Shown here one piece after another: positions 3 to 16,541 of a stretch of 23,893 bases of DNA (the stretch's first letter is position 1; every line of letters starts with the position of its first letter). Origin of the DNA: a virus. The stretch is taken from positions 1-23,893 of IMG/VR virus record IMGVR_UViG_3300003937_000008. One strand, 5' to 3'. The notes below the pieces were generated by a model. It searched no databases and was not told the DNA's origin. It worked only from the letters and a program-made list of their open reading frames with translations. Made by a program: the position numbers and the translations under genes.

Positions 3-581
3 ATGGATCCACTGTATTTAGAATTGTTTAATACTCTTAAAATTGAAAATATTAATTTAATGATTGTTACAAATAATTCTATTTTCCCAAATGAAAAATG
101 GAGGGAATATCTTACCGAATTTAAAAGTTTGAATTATAATGTTAGTATTGACGGAATTGGTGATGTAGCAGAATTCGTTAGATATGGAACTAAATGGTCT
201 CGATTTGAAAGAAATTTTGATAAACAATTAAAGCATTTTTTCGTAATACCTCATTACGTCTTTCATACCCTTAATAGCACAGACTTAACTGATACGATTA
301 AGTGGATAGAATCAAAAGGGATAACCAATAATACTATATCATATGATTTTTTAGACGCTCCGGAATGGTTAAATGCATCTTATTTGCCTTCTAATGTAAA
401 AGATATCATAATAAATAATAATGATAATTTTTTACAAAAAGAAATAATAAACTTCTTAAAGACTAATGAATTCGATAGAGGTTATTGCGTTAAACTAATT
501 AAATGGATGAATGAAAAAGATGACCTTCCAAATAAATGTGAAGAGATATATTACGAGGTCTCTAAATGCTTAAAGTCTTAA
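3..581 (+). CDS. Radical SAM protein with N-terminal twitch-type architecture (5'-truncated by window edge)
   Basis: This is the C-terminal part of a radical SAM enzyme; the open frame runs into the left edge, so the ATG at 3 is probably internal. The first visible residues (MDPLYLELF) align with the stretch just after the GGEP motif of the gene at 2480 (MNDRYYDFLEW), and the phrase VSIDGIG..AEFVRYGTKW matches VSVDGIG..DEYIRTGQVW there. The two are therefore paralogues, and the missing part should carry the CX3CX2C cluster and GGEP. The visible C-terminus has C164, C179 and C189. The stop overlaps the next start by 16 bases, indicating translational coupling. Substrate unknown. Family identity rests on the paralogy and is fairly secure. 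Confidence 0.7.
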   Translation: MDPLYLELFNTLKIENINLMIVTNNSIFPNEKWREYLTEFKSLNYNVSIDGIGDVAEFVRYGTKWSRFERNFDKQLKHFFVIPHYVFHTLNSTDLTDTIKWIESKGITNNTISYDFLDAPEWLNASYLPSNVKDIIINNNDNFLQKEIINFLKTNEFDRGYCVKLIKWMNEKDDLPNKCEEIYYEVSKCLKS

Positions 582-1477
582 CTAAGAATGGTTTAAAATC
601 TAGTAATGAGCAAGCCATTAAACTCAAATCTAATTTTAAAGGTTGGTATTGTAAACAGACAAATTACATTATCGACGCAGGATGGTGGGAAGTAGGCACA
701 TCGGTATGTAGAACACCTTATCCTGTTTCAATAGATGATTTTACAGGACCTAAAGCTATAATATGTCCTAATGAAAATTGTTTTTGTGGCACTGATATTG
801 CAATGCCGAAAGGTAAGACTGAAGATCATTTATTAATGATCGACAATTTAAAAATTAAAGGAAAGTTAGAACTCAATGATGATATTTACGCTGTTACGGG
901 TGATGATGGTGTTGCCGTTGATTATTATACTGATCGCAAATGTAATTTTAGTTGTTCTTATTGCGACCCTCGTAGTCATAATTATGAGGGGGCCTGGACT
1001 TCCTTGGAGAGAATGCAATACGCATGGACCAAAGTTAATCCACAAAACGTCAAAAAAATAGTTGTATCAGGCGGAGAACCAACTCTTGTCCCACACTATA
1101 TGGATTTTATACAATGGTTAAGAGAAAAAGAACCTGAGGCTACTATTTGGACCTTGACCAATGGTACTAAGACAGTATCTTATTTTAAAGAATTAAATAA
1201 ATATTCAAATATAAATTTTTCAATTCATCCAGAGTTTATTAATAAAAGATATATTAATAAGTTAGAACGATTTTGTGAAGAAGTAAATTTACCTTGTAAG
1301 ATTAAAATTATGTATCTACCAAAATATGAAGAATTGGTATCAGAGATATATTCAATATTTAAAGGAAAATTTGAAAAAGTTTATGCAATAATTGTTCCCT
1401 TATGGGATATGAATAACGAAATGAAGTTAATAAACTATACACCCGAACAACTCGAATTTATTCATGCGTCACAGTGA
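566..1477 (+). CDS. Radical SAM enzyme with SPASM-like cysteine domain at its N-terminus
   Basis: A 303-aa protein. The radical SAM 4Fe-4S motif CNFSCSYC is at C126/C130/C133 and SGGEP at 168-172. Ahead of the core, residues 25-82 form a Cys-rich module (C29, C48, C67, C72, C74; FKGWYC, then ICPNENCFCG..IAMPK). It resembles the C-terminal SPASM-like tail of the next gene (FKGWDC ... PCITDNC ... KIPK), so the auxiliary-cluster domain appears moved from C- to N-terminus. The core ends shortly after the barrel, with no C-terminal SPASM. It presumably cleaves SAM to a 5'-deoxyadenosyl radical and modifies an unknown substrate. It overlaps both neighbours (16 and 14 bases). Confidence 0.85.
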   Translation: MLKVLTKNGLKSSNEQAIKLKSNFKGWYCKQTNYIIDAGWWEVGTSVCRTPYPVSIDDFTGPKAIICPNENCFCGTDIAMPKGKTEDHLLMIDNLKIKGKLELNDDIYAVTGDDGVAVDYYTDRKCNFSCSYCDPRSHNYEGAWTSLERMQYAWTKVNPQNVKKIVVSGGEPTLVPHYMDFIQWLREKEPEATIWTLTNGTKTVSYFKELNKYSNINFSIHPEFINKRYINKLERFCEEVNLPCKIKIMYLPKYEELVSEIYSIFKGKFEKVYAIIVPLWDMNNEMKLINYTPEQLEFIHASQ

Positions 1478-2492
1478 AGAAGATTTTACAAAAATACCTT
1501 GGAAAGATATTGAAGCACTCGGTACAAAAACAATGTTATATCGAGACACGTTTTCAGTGTCTTGGTTATTAGGTAGATTTTGTAATTATAAATGTTCTTA
1601 TTGTTGGCCATACGCAAGGGCAGATAAGAAAGATCATAGATCAACAGAATTATGTCTTAAAACAATTGATGAGATAAAAAGACAAGCTAGAGACCAAGGA
1701 TTCAATTCTTTTAATTGGTCCTTATCAGGAGGTGAGCCAACCTTTCATCCCGGCTACTTAGATATACTACAATATCTTGCAGATGATGAATCTAATTGTA
1801 AAAGACAACGAATTCATATGACTTCAAATTGCTCTCGTAAAATGAAGTGGTTTAAAACATATGTTGAATATGCACAAAAATTTGACAAAGCATCAATTAC
1901 AGCTTCGGCACATTTTGAAGCTTTAAATACACAAGATAAGATAGCAGATTTTGCTGATAAGTTAGTTTTTCTTCAAGATAATGGAATTAGAATAACTATT
2001 AATATGGTAATGATTCCAGAGAGATTTTGGGCACTGACAGACCATGTTTTATATTTTAAAGAACGAGGTATACATACTACATTAAAACCACAATCAAATC
2101 CAACAGCAACAAAAGTTGTAGAAGGATATACTCAGGGACAATTAGATATTTTACATAATGATTCTAAACCATCTGAACGAGAGATAGATTTAATAGATTC
2201 AAAAGGAAATATATATGAATTGGATCAAGCTGAAAGATTTAACGCGTTTAATTTTAATGAATTCAAAGGCTGGGACTGCACGTCGGGTTTTCGTAGTATT
2301 ATTATACGCGAGCCTTGTGGGAGCATTAAGCGGTCATATTCTTGCAGTGATGCACCTTTAGGTAATATAGAAACTGGATTTAAATTATTTGATAAACCTA
2401 TGCCCTGCATAACTGATAATTGTGTAAGCTCAGCAGATAGTAAAATTCCTAAACGAAAGCCGGAAAGTAATTATCCATTATGGAAAAATTAA
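1464..2492 (+). CDS. Radical SAM enzyme with C-terminal SPASM-like domain
   Basis: A 342-aa radical SAM protein. The cluster motif CNYKCSYC is at C40/C44/C47 and SGGEPTF begins at 88. After the partial TIM barrel, the C-terminal ~75 residues contain six cysteines in a pattern suited to auxiliary iron-sulfur binding (GWDC, EPC, YSC, PCITDNC). SPASM/twitch enzymes commonly act on peptides or carry out redox and carbohydrate modification; which applies here cannot be read from the sequence. The start overlaps the upstream gene by 14 bases and the end overlaps the next gene by 13. The core sequence around the cluster (FCNYKCSYCWPYARADKKDH) is most like the gene just upstream. Confidence 0.87.
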   Translation: MRHSEEDFTKIPWKDIEALGTKTMLYRDTFSVSWLLGRFCNYKCSYCWPYARADKKDHRSTELCLKTIDEIKRQARDQGFNSFNWSLSGGEPTFHPGYLDILQYLADDESNCKRQRIHMTSNCSRKMKWFKTYVEYAQKFDKASITASAHFEALNTQDKIADFADKLVFLQDNGIRITINMVMIPERFWALTDHVLYFKERGIHTTLKPQSNPTATKVVEGYTQGQLDILHNDSKPSEREIDLIDSKGNIYELDQAERFNAFNFNEFKGWDCTSGFRSIIIREPCGSIKRSYSCSDAPLGNIETGFKLFDKPMPCITDNCVSSADSKIPKRKPESNYPLWKN

Positions 2493-3592
2493 AATATTTC
2501 TGTGCATTACCTTTCACCCAATTTACCGTCTCATCATTTAATGAGTATCAGTTGTGTTGTGATAATACGGGCGAATCAGGAATGTATAGTGATAAGCATT
2601 CTATCTTAGAATATTTTAATTCTGATTATATGAATAAAAAAAGAGAATCTTTTTTAAATGATGAAAGATTATCTATATGTCAGTCTTGTTGGAAAAGAGA
2701 AGATAAGGGATTAAATTCCAGAAGGTTATCAAATTTAAATAGTGACTATGAGAGCCAGGTAGAAAGATATAAACAAGGATTACCTTTAATTCCGAATGCT
2801 CCTGTTTTTAAAATTAAGTTTGGAAATTTATGTAATCTTAGATGTATAATGTGTGGCCCACAATCATCATCTGCATGGTCTCAGCATAAAGAAAAACATA
2901 GTGAAGGAACATGGCCGATTTATGAAAATACATTCAATGAAGAAACATATGAAGACTTAAAACAAATATTGCCTAATGTAGCTCGTATTATTATATCAGG
3001 AGGTGAACCTTTAATGAACGATAGATATTATGATTTTCTAGAATGGTTAATAGGTCATAAGTTTGCACACAAGTTAAAAATCTCAACACTTACTAATGCC
3101 ACAAAAATTCCAGATCATTTATTTCAATATAAAAAGGCATTTAAGCGTTTATCATTTATGGTGTCGGTTGATGGTATAGGGAAGAAAGATGAGTATATTA
3201 GAACAGGGCAAGTTTGGAAAAAGAAAAAAGAGAATATTTTCAAATTGCGACAAAGTTTTATGATTGGATTTGAAGTAACAGTGCAGGCATTTAATATTGG
3301 TTACTTAGATAATATTCAAGGATATCTAAAAAACAATTTTGGAAAAATGTCTCCCTTAACAAACATCTTAGTAACTCCAAAATATTTTGATTCTACCAGT
3401 TTACCACAAGATATAAAACAATTCTATTTAAGTAAAAATACAAAACATATTCCTGAGCGGATTACAAATCTATTAAGAACACCTACAAGAGGTAAATCTT
3501 TTCAAAAAGGTTTAAGGTTTCTTAAATTATGTGATAAAAGAAATAATACAAATTTCTTAGAAGAGTGGCCGGAATTTAAACCGTATGTATAG
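2480..3592 (+). CDS. N-twitch radical SAM protein
   Basis: A 370-aa protein with the layout of the twitch-domain radical SAM family: N-terminal cysteines for an auxiliary cluster (C8 in CALPF, C26-C27, then CQSC at C67/C70), followed by the SAM-cluster motif CNLRCIMC (C118/C122/C125), SGGEPL at 173-177 and the barrel signature VSVDGIGKKDEYIRTG. It is a full-length paralogue of the truncated gene at the left edge. In this family the N-terminal motif is a recognised hallmark; the reactions are mostly unknown. Start and stop overlap the flanking genes by 13 and 8 bases, so it belongs to the coupled radical SAM run. Confidence 0.87.
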   Translation: MEKLKYFCALPFTQFTVSSFNEYQLCCDNTGESGMYSDKHSILEYFNSDYMNKKRESFLNDERLSICQSCWKREDKGLNSRRLSNLNSDYESQVERYKQGLPLIPNAPVFKIKFGNLCNLRCIMCGPQSSSAWSQHKEKHSEGTWPIYENTFNEETYEDLKQILPNVARIIISGGEPLMNDRYYDFLEWLIGHKFAHKLKISTLTNATKIPDHLFQYKKAFKRLSFMVSVDGIGKKDEYIRTGQVWKKKKENIFKLRQSFMIGFEVTVQAFNIGYLDNIQGYLKNNFGKMSPLTNILVTPKYFDSTSLPQDIKQFYLSKNTKHIPERITNLLRTPTRGKSFQKGLRFLKLCDKRNNTNFLEEWPEFKPYV

Positions 3593-4625
3593 TCCCGATC
3601 AAATAAAACATATTCATTTAGAACCTACACAAAGATGTCAAGCTGCATGCCCAATGTGTGACAGGACAAATAATCCCCGTATAAAAAATGCTGAATTAAC
3701 CTTAGATAATTTTATGCATATGGTGGATATTGATTTTGTGAAGCAATTAAATTCATTATTAATGTGTGGTAATCACGGTGATCCTATTATCTCACTACAT
3801 GCTCTAGATATTTTAAGATACCTTAGAGTCAACAACCCAGATATACACCTGCAAGTTACTACAAATGGTGGAGCCAGAGACGAAGACTTTTGGAGAGAAT
3901 TAGCTTTCATTTTAGGTAGTAGAGGTAAAGTACAATTTAGTGTTGATGGCCTAGAAGATACAAATCATTTGTATAGAGTAAATGTTAATTGGAAAAAAAT
4001 TGAAGAAGCGATGGATGTATTTACTCAAGCAGGTGGAAAAGGTGTTTGGGTTTATTTAATATTTAAACATAATGAACATCAAGTTGAAGAAGCAGAACAA
4101 ATGGCCAAGTTATTTGGATTGGACTTTGTAAGAAAAAAGACTGGAAGGTGGGTACAGAGCTATAAAGGTAAGAAGATTGATAAAAAGATAACCAACAAAG
4201 GGAATGAGATTAAACCAGCTACAAAACCAGAGCATCAGAATCAAAGCGTAAATAAATATGATAGATTGGTTAAGACTCATGGTTCCTTTCAAGAGTATTT
4301 AGATCAAACATCCATCAAATGCAAATCCCTTATAACTAATGAAATATTTATCAGTGCTGAAGGTCTTGTAACTCCTTGCTGTTGGACTCATGGACGATTT
4401 TATAAAGCATATCAAGAGATTGGTGAAAATCAGATTTGGTCTTTCGTAGATGATATGAAAAATATAAATGCTCTTCATACACCGTTACGAGAAATCATTA
4501 AAGGGAACTTTTTCGTACAGCTGGAGAAGAGTTGGAATATTCCTTCATGTTCTGATGGGAAATCCGTTGTGTGTGCTGAGAAGTGTGGTTCCGGTTTTGA
4601 TGCTTTTAGAGATCAGTGGAAATGA
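3585..4625 (+). CDS. Radical SAM/SPASM protein
   Basis: A 346-aa protein. The radical SAM motif CQAACPMC is at C18/C22/C25, very near the N-terminus. The usual GGEP is replaced by NHGDP (63-67), a variant seen in SPASM subfamilies. The barrel continues through TTNGG (92-96) and VDGLEDTNHLYR. The C-terminal part has SPASM-type cysteines: C246, the pair C265-C266 (GLVTPCCW), C322, C330 and C334. A lysine-rich stretch at 183-230 may be an inserted loop. It is the last of five radical SAM genes in a row and ends in an ATGA overlap with the glycosyltransferase-like gene. Substrate unknown. Confidence 0.85.
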   Translation: MYSPDQIKHIHLEPTQRCQAACPMCDRTNNPRIKNAELTLDNFMHMVDIDFVKQLNSLLMCGNHGDPIISLHALDILRYLRVNNPDIHLQVTTNGGARDEDFWRELAFILGSRGKVQFSVDGLEDTNHLYRVNVNWKKIEEAMDVFTQAGGKGVWVYLIFKHNEHQVEEAEQMAKLFGLDFVRKKTGRWVQSYKGKKIDKKITNKGNEIKPATKPEHQNQSVNKYDRLVKTHGSFQEYLDQTSIKCKSLITNEIFISAEGLVTPCCWTHGRFYKAYQEIGENQIWSFVDDMKNINALHTPLREIIKGNFFVQLEKSWNIPSCSDGKSVVCAEKCGSGFDAFRDQWK

Positions 4626-9580: not shown

Positions 9581-10399
9581 ATGACAATACACATTTATGG
9601 TGATAGTTTTGGAGTAATTTGTAATCATGATAAAACATGGCCTGCGGAACTATCAAGATTAAAAAAAGAAGAAATTAATGTTAAAGCAGAATCGGGTAGT
9701 GGGCCTAATTTTTCTTTAGATTTATTAATTGCAGATTTAGAAAATAGTTCCATTAAAGATGATGATACAATTATTATTCTGTTATCTGATCAGAAGAGAC
9801 TGGAGTTTCCTTTTGTAAGGAATAATGAACATGTTACAGGGGTTTTTAGAATAGCAGAGGATGATAAAGATTGGAAACACCCATTTGAGCCAGATAATAA
9901 AGATGATCCTTGGCCTGGAGTACAGGATCAGTCTTACTTAAATGATTATAAAAAGGAAACAAAACTTATAGCACAAACATTAGGGCCTATGTTTTTATAT
10001 GAGAATGTTAAGAATATATCTTTTTTACATTTGTTATCTTTAAATTTTAAAAAGATAAGATTTGTAGTATTTACTTGTTTTAGTTTAGACCATTATCTAG
10101 GAACTTATAAAAACTTCAATATAAATTCAACTGATTTTTTACACAAAATAAAATTTGAATCTTTAGATAGTGAAAATTTTGATTATGTAAAAATTCCTGT
10201 AGGACATATTGTAGGCCTTGATGATACTGGTAATCAATTAGATAATCACATGACACCAGATAAAAATTTAAAATTTGGTAAATTAGTATATGATATAATA
10301 ATGAAAAATGAGATTGATAAATCCTGGTTTAATACACATCCCTATGATGATCCTTTTGAATACCAGCATCCATTAGAACCTATTTTCATATACGATTAA
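9581..10399 (+). CDS. SGNH/GDSL hydrolase-like protein, copy 2
   Basis: A 272-aa paralogue of the gene just upstream; the ATG at 9581 follows its stop by one base. It keeps the canonical IYGDSFG (Ser9), GSGPNFSLDLLIADL and LDNHMTPDKNLKFG, so its active site looks more complete than that of copy 1. Both end in a conserved FIYD tail and share long stretches such as LGPMFLYENVKNI and LLSDQKR.EFP. Copy 2 carries an insertion around residues 87-120 rich in Asp/Lys/Pro. It is the last gene of the island; the T4 late promoter for the tmRNA starts seven bases after its stop. Predicted role: esterase or acyl/acetyl-transfer step on the island product. Confidence 0.58.
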   Translation: MTIHIYGDSFGVICNHDKTWPAELSRLKKEEINVKAESGSGPNFSLDLLIADLENSSIKDDDTIIILLSDQKRLEFPFVRNNEHVTGVFRIAEDDKDWKHPFEPDNKDDPWPGVQDQSYLNDYKKETKLIAQTLGPMFLYENVKNISFLHLLSLNFKKIRFVVFTCFSLDHYLGTYKNFNINSTDFLHKIKFESLDSENFDYVKIPVGHIVGLDDTGNQLDNHMTPDKNLKFGKLVYDIIMKNEIDKSWFNTHPYDDPFEYQHPLEPIFIYD

Positions 10400-10405
10400 T
10401 ATTAA

Positions 10406-10413
10406 TATAAATA
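10406..10413 (+). promoter_or_regulatory. T4-type late promoter before the tmRNA
   Basis: An exact TATAAATA octamer, the T4 late-promoter consensus recognised by gp55-programmed RNA polymerase with coactivator gp33. A gp33 homologue is encoded at 16290. Transcription should start near 10419, about 60 bases before the encoded CCA end of the tmRNA acceptor piece. It overlaps no gene. The octamer could occur by chance in AT-rich DNA, but its place in the only gap of the region supports function. Confidence 0.65.
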
Positions 10414-10415
10414 CA

Positions 10416-10481
10416 GATAAGGTTGTTGATATAATTTGATAGCTTATCAGGACGTGGGTTCGATTCCCACCGCCTCCACCA
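10416..10481 (+). ncRNA. ssrA: tmRNA acceptor piece (3' half of a circularly permuted ssrA)
   Basis: This segment encodes the 3' side of a tRNA-like domain. It contains GGAC, a T arm with stem GTGGG (10454-10458), loop TTCGATT and CCCAC (10466-10470), then the acceptor 3' strand CGCCTCC, discriminator A10478 and CCA (10479-10481). No matching 5' half lies upstream. Instead GGGGGCG at 10678-10684 pairs perfectly with 10471-10477, including G3-U70, the alanine identity element. The order is therefore permuted as in alphaproteobacterial two-piece tmRNA. The 5' boundary is uncertain: the late-promoter start is near 10419, and GATAAG (10416-10421) could pair with CTTATC (10443-10448). TCAG (10447-10450) could pair with CTGA (10698-10701) in the helix-2 position. 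Confidence 0.85.
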
Positions 10482-10490
10482 AGAGATTAT

Positions 10491-10661
10491 ATGTCAAAAT
10501 TTTATAGTCCTAGAGATTATGATCTTACAGGTTTTGGTAACAATAGAAGGCACGTGCTAATTTCGGATGAAGAAAAACGCAAACGTGCTGCTAAGAATAA
10601 ACCTAAAGGAAAGCGCCACGAACATTTCAAGAAAGATTGGGATGCAGATTTGTGGGATTGA
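10491..10661 (+). CDS. 56-aa basic protein encoded between the two tmRNA pieces
   Basis: An ORF of 56 codons (ATG 10491, TGA 10659) too short for many gene callers. It fills most of the 196-base segment between the tmRNA acceptor CCA and the 5' end of the coding piece. The protein has 15 Lys/Arg, 10 Asp/Glu and 3 His: it begins MSKFYSPRDYDLTGFG and ends KKDWDADLWD, with a basic centre (EEKRKRAAKNKPKGKR). A weak purine-rich AAGAGA at 10481-10486 could serve as ribosome site. I do not recognise a family; the composition suggests nucleic acid or ribosome binding, which is inference. Maturation of the tmRNA ends would excise its message. Its uninterrupted frame and sensible composition favour a real gene. 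Confidence 0.6.
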   Translation: MSKFYSPRDYDLTGFGNNRRHVLISDEEKRKRAAKNKPKGKRHEHFKKDWDADLWD

Positions 10662-10677
10662 CTTGTAGTTTGTTGAT

Positions 10678-10866
10678 GGGGGCGTAACGGTATTCGACTG
10701 AGAGTGAAGGGATTAAGGAGACCTAAGGGTGATTACCTACAATCAAAAAAACTTAATCGCAAACAATGACGATTATACTGCATATTCTTACGCACTTGCT
10801 GCATAGACTATAGCCGAGTTGTGGCCGTCACTTGGGAACAGAAGCACGGTCAGCTACACACAACAC
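10678..10866 (+). ncRNA. ssrA: tmRNA coding piece (5' half of a circularly permuted ssrA)
   Basis: It begins GGGGGCG (10678-10684), the 5' acceptor strand, then TAACGGTATTCGAC, the conserved tmRNA D-loop-like sequence. The tag frame starts at the resume codon GCA (10759-10761) after TTAATC. Downstream an H-type pseudoknot can form: TAGC near 10810 with GCTA near 10853, crossed by GTTGTG (around 10817) with CACAAC (around 10858), with an inner GGCCGT/ACGGTC stem, as expected for PK2. PK1 could not be resolved by eye. The 3' end is an estimate placed after the pseudoknot and before the ribosome site of the next gene. It rescues stalled ribosomes with SmpB and tags the nascent chain. Shared promoter at 10406. 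Confidence 0.85.
10759..10806 (+). other. tmRNA proteolysis-tag reading frame (ANNDDYTAYSYALAA)
   Basis: Resume codon GCA then 14 codons and TAG give A-N-N-D-D-Y-T-A-Y-S-Y-A-L-A-A. With the alanine carried by the tmRNA, the appended tag would be 16 residues. It keeps the AN..D and YALAA features of the E. coli tag (ANDENYALAA) with an insertion rich in Tyr/Ser/Thr. The ALAA end is the known ClpXP degron signal. Confidence 0.85.
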
Positions 10867-10884
10867 ACACATAGAAAGGACAAT

Positions 10885-11112
10885 ATGTCTAATCCATATG
10901 AATTAAGATTTCGACTTTTGGAAATGGCACAGGGCTATCTCCAAGATCGACAAGAAGAAACCAAAGACTTTTTTTACCAAGCTTGGGATCTAGCAAAAGA
11001 AAATGGTGAAGCAAACATGGAGTTATGGAATAAACTCCAGCCAAAATCTTATACTATTGATGATATTAAGAAGAAGGCAAACGAACTCTACGAATTTGTA
11101 GAGAAGAATTAA
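10885..11112 (+). CDS. Small conserved-looking phage protein (75 aa), function unknown
   Basis: The ATG at 10885 is preceded by AGAAAGGA (10873-10880), a good ribosome site. A longer frame beginning with GTG at 10819 would lie inside the tmRNA and is rejected. The 75-aa product (MSNPYELRFRLLEMAQGYLQ ...) is predicted to be two helices, the first amphipathic and acidic/glutamine-rich, followed by SYTIDDIKKKANELYEFVEKN. No cysteine, membrane segment or signal peptide. I recall small proteins with a similar MSNPYELRF start in T4-like marine phages but cannot name a function. It probably shares the tmRNA transcript. Confidence 0.8.
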   Translation: MSNPYELRFRLLEMAQGYLQDRQEETKDFFYQAWDLAKENGEANMELWNKLQPKSYTIDDIKKKANELYEFVEKN

Positions 11113-12652: not shown

Positions 12653-13336
12653 ATGGAAGCACGAAGAAAATGCGATCCGGAGTTGGGTCAATTAGTAAGT
12701 GAACACTTGGAAAGTCTTGGTTTAGAAACACCTATGACACAAGTTCGAAAAAATTATGATAGTGAGGCAGCAATTGAATCTATCAAAGAAAACATGACGG
12801 AGATTATGACATCATTAGGATTAGATCTTAAAGATGATTCATTACAAGATACACCCAAAAGAGTAGCACAGATGTTTGTGAATGAAATTTTTTGGGGTCT
12901 TGATTATGATAGATTTCCTAAATGTACAAAAATTGAAAATAAGATGAACTATAAAGGTTCATTTGTATTAGAGAGAAATATCAATGTTCAATCCTATTGT
13001 GAGCATCACTTTATTGTTATTGATGGTGTTGCTAGCGTCGCTTATCTCCCAGACAAATATGTTTTAGGGCTATCTAAGCTGAATCGAATTGTTCAATTCT
13101 TTTCAAAACGTCCTCAAGTTCAGGAAAGACTTACTGAACAAATTAGGGCAGCAATTGCATTTGTTGCCGGAACAGAAGATGTTGCAGTTCAAATAGATGG
13201 TGCACATTTCTGTGTTAAATCACGAGGCATTCAAGATCTTAGATCTACAACTGCTACATTCTCAGCGTCAGGGGTTTTTGAAGGTGGTGCCCAACGTCAA
13301 GAATTCTTAGCAGGATGCCGCTCTTTAATGGCTTAA
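12653..13336 (+). CDS. folE: GTP cyclohydrolase I (FolE-type), 7-deazaguanine module
   Basis: A 227-aa protein. It has DTPKRVAQMF (66-75), YCEHHF with C116, H118, H119, SKLNRIVQFFSKRPQVQERLT (141-161) and AHFCVKSRG with C187: the zinc ligands and pterin-site motifs of class I GTP cyclohydrolase. The reaction is GTP to 7,8-dihydroneopterin triphosphate. In phages this is the first committed step toward preQ0 for DNA modification. A ribosome site AGGAG at 12645-12649 and its own consensus promoter precede it. Neighbouring QueC and TGT-like genes favour that use over folate synthesis. QueD and QueE are absent from the window. Confidence 0.95.
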   Translation: MEARRKCDPELGQLVSEHLESLGLETPMTQVRKNYDSEAAIESIKENMTEIMTSLGLDLKDDSLQDTPKRVAQMFVNEIFWGLDYDRFPKCTKIENKMNYKGSFVLERNINVQSYCEHHFIVIDGVASVAYLPDKYVLGLSKLNRIVQFFSKRPQVQERLTEQIRAAIAFVAGTEDVAVQIDGAHFCVKSRGIQDLRSTTATFSASGVFEGGAQRQEFLAGCRSLMA

Positions 13337-13337
13337 T

Positions 13338-14216
13338 ATGACATATATTTCACATGAAATTCCCAGATGTTTAATAGATGAACATCAAGATTTTATTAGC
13401 GATTATCAATTTGTATTACTTCACAAAATTCTAGAAGATAAAGATTATGCAGAGATGGTTTGTGAATTTGCAGGGTGTGGAGAATTTACTTATCTTGATA
13501 ATAGTTGTTTTGAATTAGGAGAATCATTAGATAATGATATTCTTTATGAATGGTTCACAAGGTTAGAACCAGATTATGTTGTCTTACCAGATGTTCTTGG
13601 AGATAAAAAAAGAACATTGGAAAGGTCTTTTGAATTTGTTGATGCTTATCCCGACACTGTCATTCATGGTATGCCTGTTATTCAAGGTTCTACACCAGAT
13701 GAAATGATTGAATGTTATAATGAATTTATGAAGTTTGGATTTCCTATAATTGGTATTCCATTTGTATATTCTTGGATCGATAAGGATCCAACTCTTCAAG
13801 CAAATGAAAGAATTAAATTACTTGAAAAAATGCATTACGAATGTATTAATAAAAGTTTAAAACATCATTTATTGGGAACCTGGCAAGCAAGAGAGTTCGC
13901 GCATTATAGAAATTATAAATGGATTCATAGTATAGATACTTCTAATCCGGTGATGTCAGCATTAGATGGTACTCCTTATGCAGGTATTCATGGATTGACA
14001 CAAAAACCGAAATCAACATTTGATTCCGTTTATGATATGAAAGAAGAAGATATTAATTTAGATCTTTTATATTATAATGTTGATACCTTCAGAGAAATTG
14101 TTACAGGAATTGGCTTTAACGCCGAAAGGCGTTCTGCTAAGTTTCCCGAAAGAAAATATCCAAAGGATTTGGATTATTACAAATATTCTACATATTCAGG
14201 TACACATGGCAAGTAA
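13338..14216 (+). CDS. TGT/DpdA-like base-exchange enzyme, predicted DNA transglycosylase
   Basis: A 292-aa TIM-barrel-like protein starting one base after the GTP cyclohydrolase stop. Motifs line up with tRNA-guanine transglycosylase in order: YLDNSCFELG (D54; counterpart of the DSGGFQ strand), VLPDVLGDKKRT (D85), MPVIQGST (Q116-G117, counterpart of the QG base-recognition site), LGTWQAR (G180) and IHSIDTSNP (D200 as presumed nucleophile). DpdA is the phage/bacterial TGT relative that inserts preQ0-type bases into DNA. Adjacent FolE and QueC support the DNA-modification role. It is short compared with classic TGT (about 370 aa), so assignment to a DpdA subtype is open. Confidence 0.7.
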   Translation: MTYISHEIPRCLIDEHQDFISDYQFVLLHKILEDKDYAEMVCEFAGCGEFTYLDNSCFELGESLDNDILYEWFTRLEPDYVVLPDVLGDKKRTLERSFEFVDAYPDTVIHGMPVIQGSTPDEMIECYNEFMKFGFPIIGIPFVYSWIDKDPTLQANERIKLLEKMHYECINKSLKHHLLGTWQAREFAHYRNYKWIHSIDTSNPVMSALDGTPYAGIHGLTQKPKSTFDSVYDMKEEDINLDLLYYNVDTFREIVTGIGFNAERRSAKFPERKYPKDLDYYKYSTYSGTHGK

Positions 14217-14436
14217 AATAGATCCCGACCATTATCATAGTAATACTAACTTAGAAGCAATTGATGTTATAGAAGCGTTTGATTTAAATTTTCATCGTGG
14301 TAATATTGTTAAGTATGTATTACGAGCTGGTAAGAAAACGGAAAAAGGTTATGAAAATAAAGAAAAGCAATTAGAAGATTTGAAAAAATCAAAATGGTAT
14401 CTTGAAAGATTAATCAAGAATGTTGAAGAAGGTTAA
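14206..14436 (+). CDS. Small DUF3310-like (SaV-type) protein
   Basis: The 76-aa frame from the ATG at 14206 overlaps the end of the TGT-like gene by 11 bases and reads MASKIDPDHYHSNTNLEAIDVIEAF ... HRGNIVKYVLRAGKK ... LEDLKKSKWYLERLI. The DHY / EAIDVIEAF / GNIVKYVLRAGKK pattern is typical of the DUF3310 proteins of phages, sometimes called nucleotide kinase-like or SaV; true activity in the family is not firmly established. It is likely a small cytosolic helix-rich protein. The ribosome site is inside the upstream gene. Confidence 0.75.
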   Translation: MASKIDPDHYHSNTNLEAIDVIEAFDLNFHRGNIVKYVLRAGKKTEKGYENKEKQLEDLKKSKWYLERLIKNVEEG

Positions 14437-14437
14437 T

Positions 14438-15181
14438 ATGGATTTACGTGAAGCCAGAGATAAACTCCCAAAGATTGAAAATAATGTTGCTGTTATATTA
14501 TCAGGTGGCATGGATAGTTCTATTGTTACAATGCTGTTGGCCAAACATTATGGACCAGAAAAAGTATTTGCTTTAACATTTAATTACGGACAAAAACAAG
14601 TAGCTGAATGTGGAAAAGCAAAAGAATTGTGTCAAGAATTAGGTGTGGCACATAAACAATTAGATATTGGTTATTTTGGAGAATTAGTTCAACCTATTAG
14701 TGCAAATATATCTGGCACTGATATTGATATGCCCGACATTAAAGAAGTATTAGGAGATCCTCAACCCGTAACATATGTTCCATTTAGGAATATGATGTTA
14801 TTGAGTAATGCTTGTGCTTTTGCAGAAGTGGTAAAGGCGGAATATATTTTTTGCGGTCTTCAAGTTCATGATGAATATGGTTATTGGGATACTAGTCAAG
14901 CTTTTGTAGATGCGTTAAATGGCATCACAGTACTAAATAGAACATTCAAGACACAAATTATTGCACCGTTCTCTTTATTAAGTAAAACAGAAGAACTTAA
15001 AATTTGTAAAGAATTAAGAACATACCATTTATTAGTACACACTTTAACATGTTACGATCCGGATGAAAAAGGAAAAAGTTGTGGGACATGTCCTTCATGT
15101 AGTGAACGTATTAAGGCATTTATGAATATTAAAGATCCGGATCCTATTCAATATCAAAAGGAGATAAACTGGCATGTGTAG
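14438..15181 (+). CDS. queC: 7-cyano-7-deazaguanine synthase QueC
   Basis: A 247-aa protein. VILSGGMDSSIV (SGGMDSS at 22-28) is the PP-loop ATP-pyrophosphatase motif, followed by FALTFNYGQKQ, a QueC signature. The C-terminal zinc site is C205, C215, C218, C221 in TCYDP..KSCGTCPSCSER. VPFRNMMLLS is also typical. QueC converts 7-carboxy-7-deazaguanine to preQ0 using ATP and ammonia. The start at ATG 14438 has GAAGAAGG upstream; a longer frame begins inside the previous gene. The end overlaps the amidotransferase gene by 8 bases, so the two proteins are probably made in equal amounts and may form a complex. Confidence 0.95.
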   Translation: MDLREARDKLPKIENNVAVILSGGMDSSIVTMLLAKHYGPEKVFALTFNYGQKQVAECGKAKELCQELGVAHKQLDIGYFGELVQPISANISGTDIDMPDIKEVLGDPQPVTYVPFRNMMLLSNACAFAEVVKAEYIFCGLQVHDEYGYWDTSQAFVDALNGITVLNRTFKTQIIAPFSLLSKTEELKICKELRTYHLLVHTLTCYDPDEKGKSCGTCPSCSERIKAFMNIKDPDPIQYQKEINWHV

Positions 15182-15836
15182 TATTTCCGCAAGTAAGAGC
15201 AAAGAAGTTTTATTAAAATTAGTAGAACTTAATAGATATCGAGGTGAAGAATCACATTCGGTTTCACAGTTTTTATATCACGAAGATCTAGATCCCGACG
15301 CCAATGGTTTGTATCTTAAAGAACAGATTAAATCATATGGTCCTTTAGATGTAAAACACTTAGATGGTGAATGGGATTATTGTGTTGTTCATCAACAAGC
15401 GCCCACATCAAAAGAAGTTAATAATACTGATTTAGCAATAGGCAGATTTATTCATCCAGCTGTGAAAGGAAAATCTTATTTGTGGCATAATGGTATTATT
15501 AAAGAAGGAAAATTTGAAGGTGATTGGGATACAGAATGGTTGTTTGATATTACATTAGATGATTTGAAAAAAAGTCCTCTTAAAAGATTTAATGCTAAAA
15601 TAAGTGAAGCAGATGGTACATTTGCATGCATGATGCATCACGATAGTAGTATGTTTATATTTCGTAATGAAATTAGTCCTTTGTTTAGTGAAGGGTCATC
15701 CTTTTCTTCTACTAAGTTTGAAAACTCTATTCCAGTGCCCGCAAATACAATGTGGGAATTAGATTATGAAATAGGTGGTTTAGTAAAACAATGGAATTTT
15801 GAAACAAAAGAAAATCCCTATCATTTTGGAGAATAA
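15174..15836 (+). CDS. Stand-alone class II glutamine amidotransferase, partner of QueC
   Basis: A 220-aa protein beginning MCSIS, so Cys2 becomes the N-terminal nucleophile after Met removal, as in class II (Ntn) glutaminases. Further motifs fit: RYRGEES (RG at 23-24), HQQAPTS (H73), LWHNGII (NG at 106-107), DTEWLFD (119-125) and ADGTFACM (146-153). Established knowledge: some phage systems carry a fused Gat-QueC that turns preQ0 into archaeosine-type bases. Here the two domains are adjacent, overlapping genes in the reverse domain order. The protein may deliver ammonia to QueC or to a preQ0 nitrile. It overlaps the next gene by one base. Confidence 0.8.
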   Translation: MCSISASKSKEVLLKLVELNRYRGEESHSVSQFLYHEDLDPDANGLYLKEQIKSYGPLDVKHLDGEWDYCVVHQQAPTSKEVNNTDLAIGRFIHPAVKGKSYLWHNGIIKEGKFEGDWDTEWLFDITLDDLKKSPLKRFNAKISEADGTFACMMHHDSSMFIFRNEISPLFSEGSSFSSTKFENSIPVPANTMWELDYEIGGLVKQWNFETKENPYHFGE

Positions 15837-16306
15837 TGTTTATACATCCCGTGAATGCCTCTACTGAGGTAACAAATATCGATGATACAATGATTCAACC
15901 AAATACTGTTGATTTACGAGTCGATAAGGTTTTTAAAATTGGTCGAGGTCCAATGCATATAGATGAAGGTAAAAAAGAACATAGAAAATCAATAGAACAA
16001 AAAGTCGATGAAAATGGTAACTTTGTTTTAGATCAGGGTGCTTGTTATGAAATTCAGTCTAAACAACATGTAGAAATAGCAGAGGGCGAAATTGCAATTA
16101 TTCTTGGCAGAAGCACTTTTAATAGAAACGGTGTTTTAATTATTAGTTCAATTTATGATTCAGGCTTTAAAGATTATGCAGGAGCAACTTTATATAATAT
16201 TGGGGGAGAAACAACGGTTAAACCTAATACTAGATTTGCTCATTTAGCTATAGCAAAAGCAGAATCATTACATAAATATGATGGAGACTATGGCGAAAAA
16301 AATTGA
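15836..16306 (+). CDS. dUTPase/dCTP deaminase superfamily protein
   Basis: A 156-aa protein; start overlaps the previous stop (TAATG). MIQPNTVDLRVDKVF resembles the N-terminal strand of dCTP deaminases; EGEIAIILGRSTFNRNGVLI and SSIYDSGFKDYAGATLYNIGG resemble the RS.xxR.G and iD.gfxG motifs of the trimeric dUTPase/Dcd fold. The Glu that marks dCTP deaminase in the tLE.N strand is not obvious (ATLYN), so a dUTPase-like or non-deaminating role is possible. It would act on the nucleotide pool, avoiding uracil in new DNA. Ribosome site likely inside the previous gene. Confidence 0.75.
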   Translation: MFIHPVNASTEVTNIDDTMIQPNTVDLRVDKVFKIGRGPMHIDEGKKEHRKSIEQKVDENGNFVLDQGACYEIQSKQHVEIAEGEIAIILGRSTFNRNGVLIISSIYDSGFKDYAGATLYNIGGETTVKPNTRFAHLAIAKAESLHKYDGDYGEKN

Positions 16307-16541
16307 TAATAAAGAAACTATAATAAAAATGCTGACTCCTGAAACATTCAATTTGGATGTTAAGAAGTTGTCAGATAAAATGCCGGTAATGGATGCAATT
16401 TTACATTATTGTGAAATGAATAAATTAGAATATGAAACAGCTGCTTCTTTAATATCTACAGACTTAAAAAGAGTTTTACGAGCTGAAGCGGAAGAATTAA
16501 ATTTCATACCGACCACATCAAAGTTGCCTATCAATGTTTGA
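16290..16541 (+). CDS. 33: Late transcription coactivator gp33 homologue
   Basis: An 83-aa protein. I place the start at ATG 16290 (MAKKIDNK), with GGAG at 16283-16286; an ATG at 16278 is possible. The signature MDAILHYCEMNKLEYETAASLIST.LKRVLRAEAEELNFIP....LPI is characteristic of the phage late-transcription coactivator family. gp33 binds the RNA polymerase beta flap and links sigma factor gp55 and the sliding clamp at late promoters, which matches the TATAAATA elements at 10406, 23595 and 23619. It overlaps the dUTPase-like gene by 17 bases. Position next to gp59 and gp32 is as in T4. Confidence 0.85.
   Translation: MAKKIDNKETIIKMLTPETFNLDVKKLSDKMPVMDAILHYCEMNKLEYETAASLISTDLKRVLRAEAEELNFIPTTSKLPINV

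Follow-up and report, generated by a model that had tools for sequence, protein, structure and literature searches.

A phage tmRNA gene with a protein gene in its spacer: one precursor RNA that is probably both messenger and tmRNA

In circularly permuted genes for transfer-messenger RNA (tmRNA), the spacer between the two pieces is regarded as being cut from the precursor and as absent from the mature RNA. One such gene lies in the window analyzed here, a 23,893-nucleotide (nt) fragment of a T4-type phage given as IMG/VR record IMGVR_UViG_3300003937_000008 (all coordinates are window positions on the + strand), and it raises the question of what a protein gene does in a segment of RNA that is cut away: the 196-nt spacer (10482–10677) contains an open reading frame (ORF) of 56 codons (10491–10661, stop included) that starts 9 nt past the CCA and covers 87% of the spacer. 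An earlier note on this DNA had seen the tmRNA but overlooked this spacer-filling ORF, which is the main feature of the locus. As the spacer is a protein gene in the window and in most of the sampled relatives of its clade, our analysis suggests that one precursor RNA is probably both messenger and tmRNA.

The gene around this spacer had been proposed to be a phage-borne permuted tmRNA whose halves form a perfect 7-bp stem with a G3-U70 pair, and this is borne out by two programs and by direct reading. ARAGORN calls a single permuted tmRNA (tmRNA*) at 10389–10897 with the tag ANNDDYTAYSYALAA, and RF04321 (tmRNA_permuted) is the sole Rfam match at gathering threshold in the whole window (10421–10806; 96.8 bits, cut-off 47, E 5.6e-18). 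The acceptor/T-arm piece (10421–10481, the 5' limit being that of the model) lies upstream of the tag-coding piece and consists of the T arm, the acceptor strand CGCCTCC (10471–10477), an A, and CCA (10479–10481); the T loop TTCGATT is intact, and the extra sequence sits after the CCA. The coding piece opens with GGGGGCG (10678–10684) and extends to approximately 10880 (the ARAGORN end is 10897). All seven pairs of an alanine-type acceptor stem are formed, G10680–U10475 being the G3-U70 pair, and the tag frame (10759–10806) has a hydrophobic end followed by a stop. The predicted fold of 10421–10720 has a z-score of −3.83. The earlier note had suggested a covariance-model check with the alpha-specific two-piece model; the locus passes with the newer merged model RF04321, and stays below the cut-off of RF01849 (gathering score 50 bits) itself.

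The protein encoded in the spacer (MSKFYSPRDYDLTGFGNNRR...DWDADLWD) belongs to a family, F1, that we also found within the spacers of five other loci (L002–L006). Length differences within the family are whole codons, and its ORF is longer than those in shuffled spacers (p 0.003–0.007). F1 is also free-standing in L007, L008 and L009, on contigs with no RF04321 match, and in L268 and L273, where ARAGORN calls no tmRNA on the stretch covered; the truncated contig L010 opens with a partial copy, and L011 and L012 were left out as chance matches. A second family (type 2) combines an F1-like C-terminus with a different N-terminus and lies in the spacers of L276, L277, L281, L282 and others, and free-standing in L278–L280. 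All eight type-2 tmRNA loci scanned are above the RF04321 cut-off, and seven of the eight reach that of RF01849 (52.7–73 bits). The 177-kb phage contig IMGVR_UViG_3300020399_000132 carries a free-standing type-2 gene (L278, on a stretch without tmRNA) and a tmRNA with a membrane-type spacer gene (L529).

F1 has no Pfam family, and tblastn searches of 50,697 isolate phage records gave no match for F1 (E up to 1) or for the common 30-residue membrane protein of other spacers described below (E up to 10). AlphaFold modeling of F1 from eight sequences (mean predicted local distance difference score 65.6, predicted template-modeling score 0.31) was too poor for a fold search. The idea that F1 might be gp33, which came from the position of gp33 beside ssrA in phage Mosig and downstream of it in HTVC008M, was rejected, as the gp33 of the window is a separate ORF (16278–16541). 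A relation of the DWDADLWD C-terminus to the T4-type sliding-clamp tail was likewise unsupported: the gp43 ends, SSLEAFLV on the L278 contig and SNLEDFF in HTVC008M, are only loosely alike.

The clade of the window was sampled by a pattern of the 5' piece alone, blind to the spacer, which yielded 60 sites including the window, 57 of them complete and 38 distinct. At 57 of the 60 sites there is a 3' piece that has the required CCA and forms all seven pairs, and the other three adjoin a contig end. We counted an ORF as nested if it has at least 20 codons, starts 4–24 nt past the CCA and covers at least 75% of the spacer. By this criterion, 35 of the 38 distinct clade tmRNA genes contain a nested ORF, which starts 4–15 nt past the CCA and occupies 79–95% of the spacer; the remaining three spacers are short (34, 37 and 42 nt). 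In 36 of the 38, the tag can be read and closes with two alanines before a stop. RF04321 is above its cut-off in all 35 distinct members scanned, and of 33 clade loci scanned with RF01849, 17 reach its cut-off (11/20 and 6/13; at most 74.5 bits). Acceptor pairs 5 and 6 change with compensation (GGGGGCG/CGCCTCC, GGGGCTG/CAGCTCC, GGGGATG/CATCTCC, GGGGGTG/CACCTCC), in a sample for which seven pairs were required. Sorted by eye, the cargo falls into nine types, two of them with a common C-terminus, and a transmembrane-like segment (19-residue window with a Kyte–Doolittle mean of at least 1.6) is present in 30 of the 35 nested ORFs.

Most of the nested ORFs bear the mark of purifying selection. Ratios of nonsynonymous to synonymous substitution rates (Ka/Ks) by the Nei–Gojobori method, with pairs involving the broken L286 copy left out and saturated or zero-Ks pairs giving no ratio, are 0.26–0.37 for F1 (the window compared with L004–L006), 0.13–0.41 between full-length copies of family F2 (0.09 for one close pair), 0.15 for F4, 0.12–0.15 for F5, and 0.09–0.10 for a nuclease family compared with L118 over 146 codons. 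For the common 30-residue membrane family, the corresponding ratio of proportions of differences (pN/pS) is 0.37 among 14 distinct ORFs, with pN below pS in 89 of 91 pairs, and 0.45 for interior codons off the spacer helix. When a tree is built from the tmRNA pieces alone, with the spacers removed, 15 changes of cargo type are needed, the minimum being 9 and the shuffled average 21.4; judged from this tree, which is only partly resolved (of its 34 inner branches, 13 are well supported and 17 open), cargo types are clustered, yet exchanged. L133 has a spacer of 42 nt in which both ends of a longer ORF survive; its sister (support 99/97) is L137, whose 103-nt spacer holds a nested ORF, and the short spacer of L133 is most simply explained by loss of cargo. 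L080 matches the window exactly over the 33 nt leading up to the CCA and over the initial 54 nt of the 5' piece; its spacer has 34 nt, and it sits on a long end branch of the tree.

Beyond the clade, a neutral viral sample drawn by a T-arm DNA pattern, again blind to the spacer, comprised 57 distinct permuted tmRNAs. Six of them have a nested ORF; one of these is of the window's own family, and in L107 the frame is ambiguous (it was counted by its longest frame, and the other frame, MFEEWHWVYLLG..., adjoins a ribosome-binding motif). A second pattern gave 12 nested genes among 21, a biased sample as it sought a ribosome-binding site and ATG past the CCA, and another 5'-piece pattern was too narrow, with two matches. 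Counted across the clade and beyond it, the 53 further viral loci scanned with RF04321 (16 + 20 + 17) were all above cut-off. The cargo outside the clade includes membrane-type proteins of 41 and 22 residues, a hydrophilic protein of 50 residues and, in L118, L310, L316 and L382, a complete staphylococcal-nuclease-like protein of 146 residues that fills a spacer of 454–455 nt (Pfam SNase, E 2.6e-12; PHROG 452, endonuclease); RF04321 spans the nuclease-filled spacer in all four loci (94.9–114.1 bits). Some other spacers are peculiar in their own ways. In L321 (150-nt spacer), an ORF (MRIQMKGGDEYDALSRK...) begins past the CCA and continues into the 5' piece, with a weak match to PHROG 16066 (E 0.00037); the spacers of L016, L026, L027 and L083 share, as read by eye, an open frame of about PDWYYTENEWSRLG..GPLPDERN that enters the 5' piece and is perhaps the end of another gene; and the 237-nt spacer of L101 has an apparent second T-arm-like and CCA-like stretch, where ARAGORN calls the tmRNA only.

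Bacterial genes served as a control. RF04321 matched 178 of 190 alphaproteobacterial genomes, 174 above cut-off, and 50 loci were taken from the matches listed (the 30 best and 20 chosen by eye for long spans). Spacers could be delimited in 49 of the 50 (5–232 nt), and none of the 49 is nested, compared with 35/38 in the clade and 6/57 in the neutral viral sample (Fisher p 0.029 for the latter). This control replaced one based on a T-arm pattern that had given too few permuted genes (four, then six, of which two had spacers too long to be plausible, 1281 and 1701 nt). In the order of G199, the genome of a locus titled Accumulibacter, five of 150 genomes were above the RF04321 cut-off, with spans of 185–246 nt. 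The genome of L209, Microvirga calopogonii (G009), has extra permuted tmRNAs on contigs C51 and C211 besides that on C1; the copy on C51, a contig of 10.8 kb, differs in its T arm, has a spacer of 91 nt and is possibly on a mobile element.

Eight isolate phages with a permuted tmRNA were examined: Moby, Rb1, QDWS359, QDWS595, RcSimone-Hastad, Tunturi_4, Mosig and HTVC008M. Only Rb1 (L396) is nested by our criterion, with a TTG-started frame of 29 codons over 84% of the spacer that has no ribosome-binding-like motif and was taken as chance. Tunturi_4 is just under the criterion (35 codons, 70% of the spacer), and the remaining six have at most 18 codons. In Tunturiibacter phage Tunturi_4 (L401), immediately upstream of the permuted tmRNA stands a gene (818–1165) annotated as a release factor with the RF-1 domain, of the kind seen in ArfB-like rescue factors, and two ribosome-rescue devices may possibly stand side by side there. 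In Stenotrophomonas phage Moby (L395), an annotated hypothetical protein of 37 codons (1358–1471) lies inside the permuted tmRNA span of ARAGORN, where the tmRNA is not annotated, and seems to read through the tag frame.

How a ribosome might gain access to the nested gene may depend on a helix that continues the acceptor stem. The first 11 nt of the spacer (10482–10492), which contain a ribosome-binding-like stretch and reach the start codon, pair with positions 5–15 from the spacer end (10663–10673), and the ribosome-binding region is thus covered by the helix. In 22 distinct nested spacers, 89% of cells are paired, compared with at most 73% when the 3' strands were dealt among the genes; in 50 other spacers the values are 80% and 57% (Rb1 was left out of these counts), and in the clade 87% and 74%, with pair 7 occurring as GC, TA, CG or AT and standing in 38/38. 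Nested genes thus retain a helix that is shared with the non-nested spacers. A motif like AGGA, GGAG or AAGG lies between the CCA and the start in 27 of the 35 nested clade ORFs.

The note had placed the gene under a T4 late promoter, and an exact TATAAATA is indeed present at 10406–10413, 7 nt ahead of the start of the Rfam match. The window has four such sites compared with 6.2 in shuffles, and the site by itself therefore proves nothing. Exact copies stand upstream of 17 of 100 permuted tmRNAs collected, compared with at most six in shuffles (L080 was excluded, as its upstream slice ran off the contig); they lie 53 nt before the T stem in L004–L006 (40 nt in the window) and 41 nt in the type-2 loci L286 and L290, and copies with one mismatch occur in L285, L288, L289, L291 and L292, and with two in L287. 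L134, L135 and L137 have no exact copy. Conservation of the site does not extend to the whole clade, late expression of the window gene is no more than plausible, and such expression is likely for some clade members only.

Several things can be read directly from the sequences: the parts of the tmRNA, the ORF that fills its spacer, the conservation of the encoded protein, the relatives of this protein that stand alone, and, in sister phages, the replacement of one gene by another in a slot that keeps its helix. They lead us to propose, at a probability of roughly 80%, that the permuted tmRNA works and that its spacer also acts as mRNA, with translation probably taking place ahead of the folding that leads to processing. 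The primary transcript would start near 10420, and ribosomes would load right past the CCA and translate the spacer ORF on the nascent transcript, most simply before the 3' helix strand has been transcribed. With the emergence of the 3' helix strand and the 5' acceptor strand, the helix would close over the ribosome-binding region; cuts by RNase P at G10678 and by 3' processing at the CCA would then yield two tmRNA pieces that work with the SmpB of the host. The spacer would in this way be a gene slot, giving a small protein and a rescue RNA from one transcript.

Several observations weigh against this proposal. The ribosome-binding stretch of the window is only AGAG, pair 2 of the helix stands in only 11 of the 38 clade members, and the 35 nested cases are not independent events, as there are near-identical entries among the 38. 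A premature stop interrupts L286, a type-2 copy, and the free-standing F1 kin are on fragments, so that a tmRNA elsewhere in those genomes is possible. The F1 Ka/Ks is based on 9–11 changes, with two nonsynonymous and no synonymous changes between L004 and L005/L006; only six of the 57 genes of the neutral viral sample are nested, and the window tmRNA has a lower RF04321 score than the alphaproteobacterial tmRNAs listed. The region before the F1 start is also predicted to be paired in the precursor (0.83) and in the excised spacer (0.70), and translation therefore needs a time window. This pairing would also suit an arrangement in which the protein comes from a separate transcript, the precursor is never both messenger and tmRNA, and nesting merely saves space, as might be expected in compact phage genomes. 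However, the nested ORFs of all 35 clade members start within 15 nt of the CCA, and a separate promoter would have to sit within the 3' piece or further upstream; we consider this arrangement unlikely.

The spacer gene could also be real and the surrounding tmRNA decaying or non-functional, so that the protein alone matters. The window tmRNA scores 96.8 bits with RF04321, compared with 130–166 bits for the alphaproteobacterial tmRNAs listed, and ARAGORN misses the tmRNAs of L276, L281 and L282, though RF04321 finds them. Such decay is, however, difficult to reconcile with the compensated changes in the acceptor stem and in the spacer helix, with the CCA and seven pairs at every clade site that does not adjoin a contig end, with the tags in 36/38 members, or with the 53 viral loci that pass the RF04321 cut-off, and we regard it as improbable. 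Least probable is that the tmRNA is of the usual permuted kind, with a spacer that encodes nothing and a frame that is open by chance. Outside the clade most spacers indeed fail our criterion (51 of 57 neutral viral, 49 of 49 alphaproteobacterial and seven of eight isolate genes). But the protein is conserved in free-standing copies, Ka/Ks between the window and L004–L006 is below 0.4, the ORF exceeds those of shuffled spacers, nearly all clade members are nested, and other spacers hold a whole nuclease gene. We, therefore, keep to a functional tmRNA whose precursor is probably also a messenger.

Such a precursor would be a natural example of an RNA with two uses, a single molecule being both messenger and non-coding RNA, with cargo swapped in one slot, and the conflict between translation and RNA processing that it implies is directly testable. 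It would also bring to light a group of small proteins of phages, most of them of membrane type; for the two families searched, no relatives were found in the isolate records covered. The permuted layout offers room for cargo that is absent from a one-piece gene, which might be a reason for keeping the two-piece form. A wider view, which we put forward tentatively and with some doubt, is that the spacer of phage permuted tmRNAs is a small-protein expression slot with a built-in switch: the processing helix would also cover the ribosome-binding site, and the RNA would act as messenger during its synthesis and as tmRNA after its completion. The cargo, exchanged between genes, would be mostly single-pass membrane-type proteins of 22–41 residues, but also a whole nuclease, and would form an overlooked class of small phage proteins.

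The T4-type nature of the phage, as assumed in the earlier note, is supported by gp32-like, tail-tube and baseplate-hub PHROG matches, by the gp33-type late-transcription coactivator mentioned above (Pfam Trans_coact, E 6.8e-14) and by a gp32 that is 53–56% identical to those of marine T4-types among the 40 listed of 2418 records, with seven others, outside those 40, in the 60–80% band. No SmpB was found in the 23.9-kb fragment, and the phage may carry one outside it; one bacterial scan with a degenerate tag pattern gave no match that would point to a host. Further genes of the window are four consecutive radical-SAM ORFs (566–4625; Pfam E 6e-14 to 4e-11), four scanned ORFs between 7392 and 10399 without a Pfam match, and, close together at 12653–16306, genes for GTP cyclohydrolase I, QueC and a dCTP-deaminase-like protein, which suggest 7-deazaguanine (queuosine-type) chemistry in the phage.

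With respect to known systems, the window tmRNA itself is a further member of the already described phage two-piece tmRNAs, and the claim that there is no well-described example in a T4-type phage was wrong. In the accessible part of PMC9004378, Methylophilales phage Melnitz is described as having a two-piece tmRNA, Mosig is given as a further phage with a tmRNA, and the number of two-piece structures among isolate phages is put at 53, of which 50 are marine or aquatic; the part available of PMC11915505, the RF04321 paper, counts 79 phage tmRNA sequences of all forms. RF04321 detects the tmRNAs of Pelagibacter phage Mosig and HTVC008M. The window shares with the permuted tmRNAs of RF04321 (alpha RF01849, beta RF01850) the order of acceptor piece, spacer and coding piece, the tRNA-like domain, the tag and the helix beside the acceptor stem, and with Melnitz, Mosig and HTVC008M the occurrence in a marine T4-type phage (PMC9004378, as far as accessible). 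Unlike the 49 alphaproteobacterial genes, its spacer encodes a conserved protein. The spacers of Mosig (43–44 nt) and HTVC008M (49 nt) have longest ORFs of seven and nine codons, compared with 56 codons in the 196 nt of the window. In Mosig, gp33 adjoins ssrA, whereas it lies about 5.4 kb downstream of the tmRNA in the window, and the glutamine riboswitch reported with the Melnitz tmRNA in that part of PMC9004378 has no counterpart in the window at the Rfam gathering threshold. The truncated inhibitory phage tmRNAs of the DS6A type are described, in the text available, as a tRNA-like domain without a tag frame; the window has a tag frame.

We found no protein gene in the spacer of a permuted tmRNA in the open-access literature searched, including the accessible parts of PMC11915505, PMC3978253, PMC4131195 and PMC10117765. 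Extra content in such spacers, as in the window, is known from two single cases, a tRNA-Ala and a repeat, neither of which is a protein gene or is given as phage in the accessible part of PMC11915505. The nearest parallel in the literature, according to the same part of that paper, is the LAGLIDADG homing-endonuclease gene in a group I intron-form tmRNA, which resembles the window in that a protein gene lies inside a tmRNA gene. No homing-endonuclease match was found among the spacer cargo scanned (F1 has no Pfam family, and the 146-residue gene is SNase), and the site of insertion differs as well: the intron-form insert is described there as lying in the T loop, whereas that of the window follows the CCA and leaves the T loop intact.
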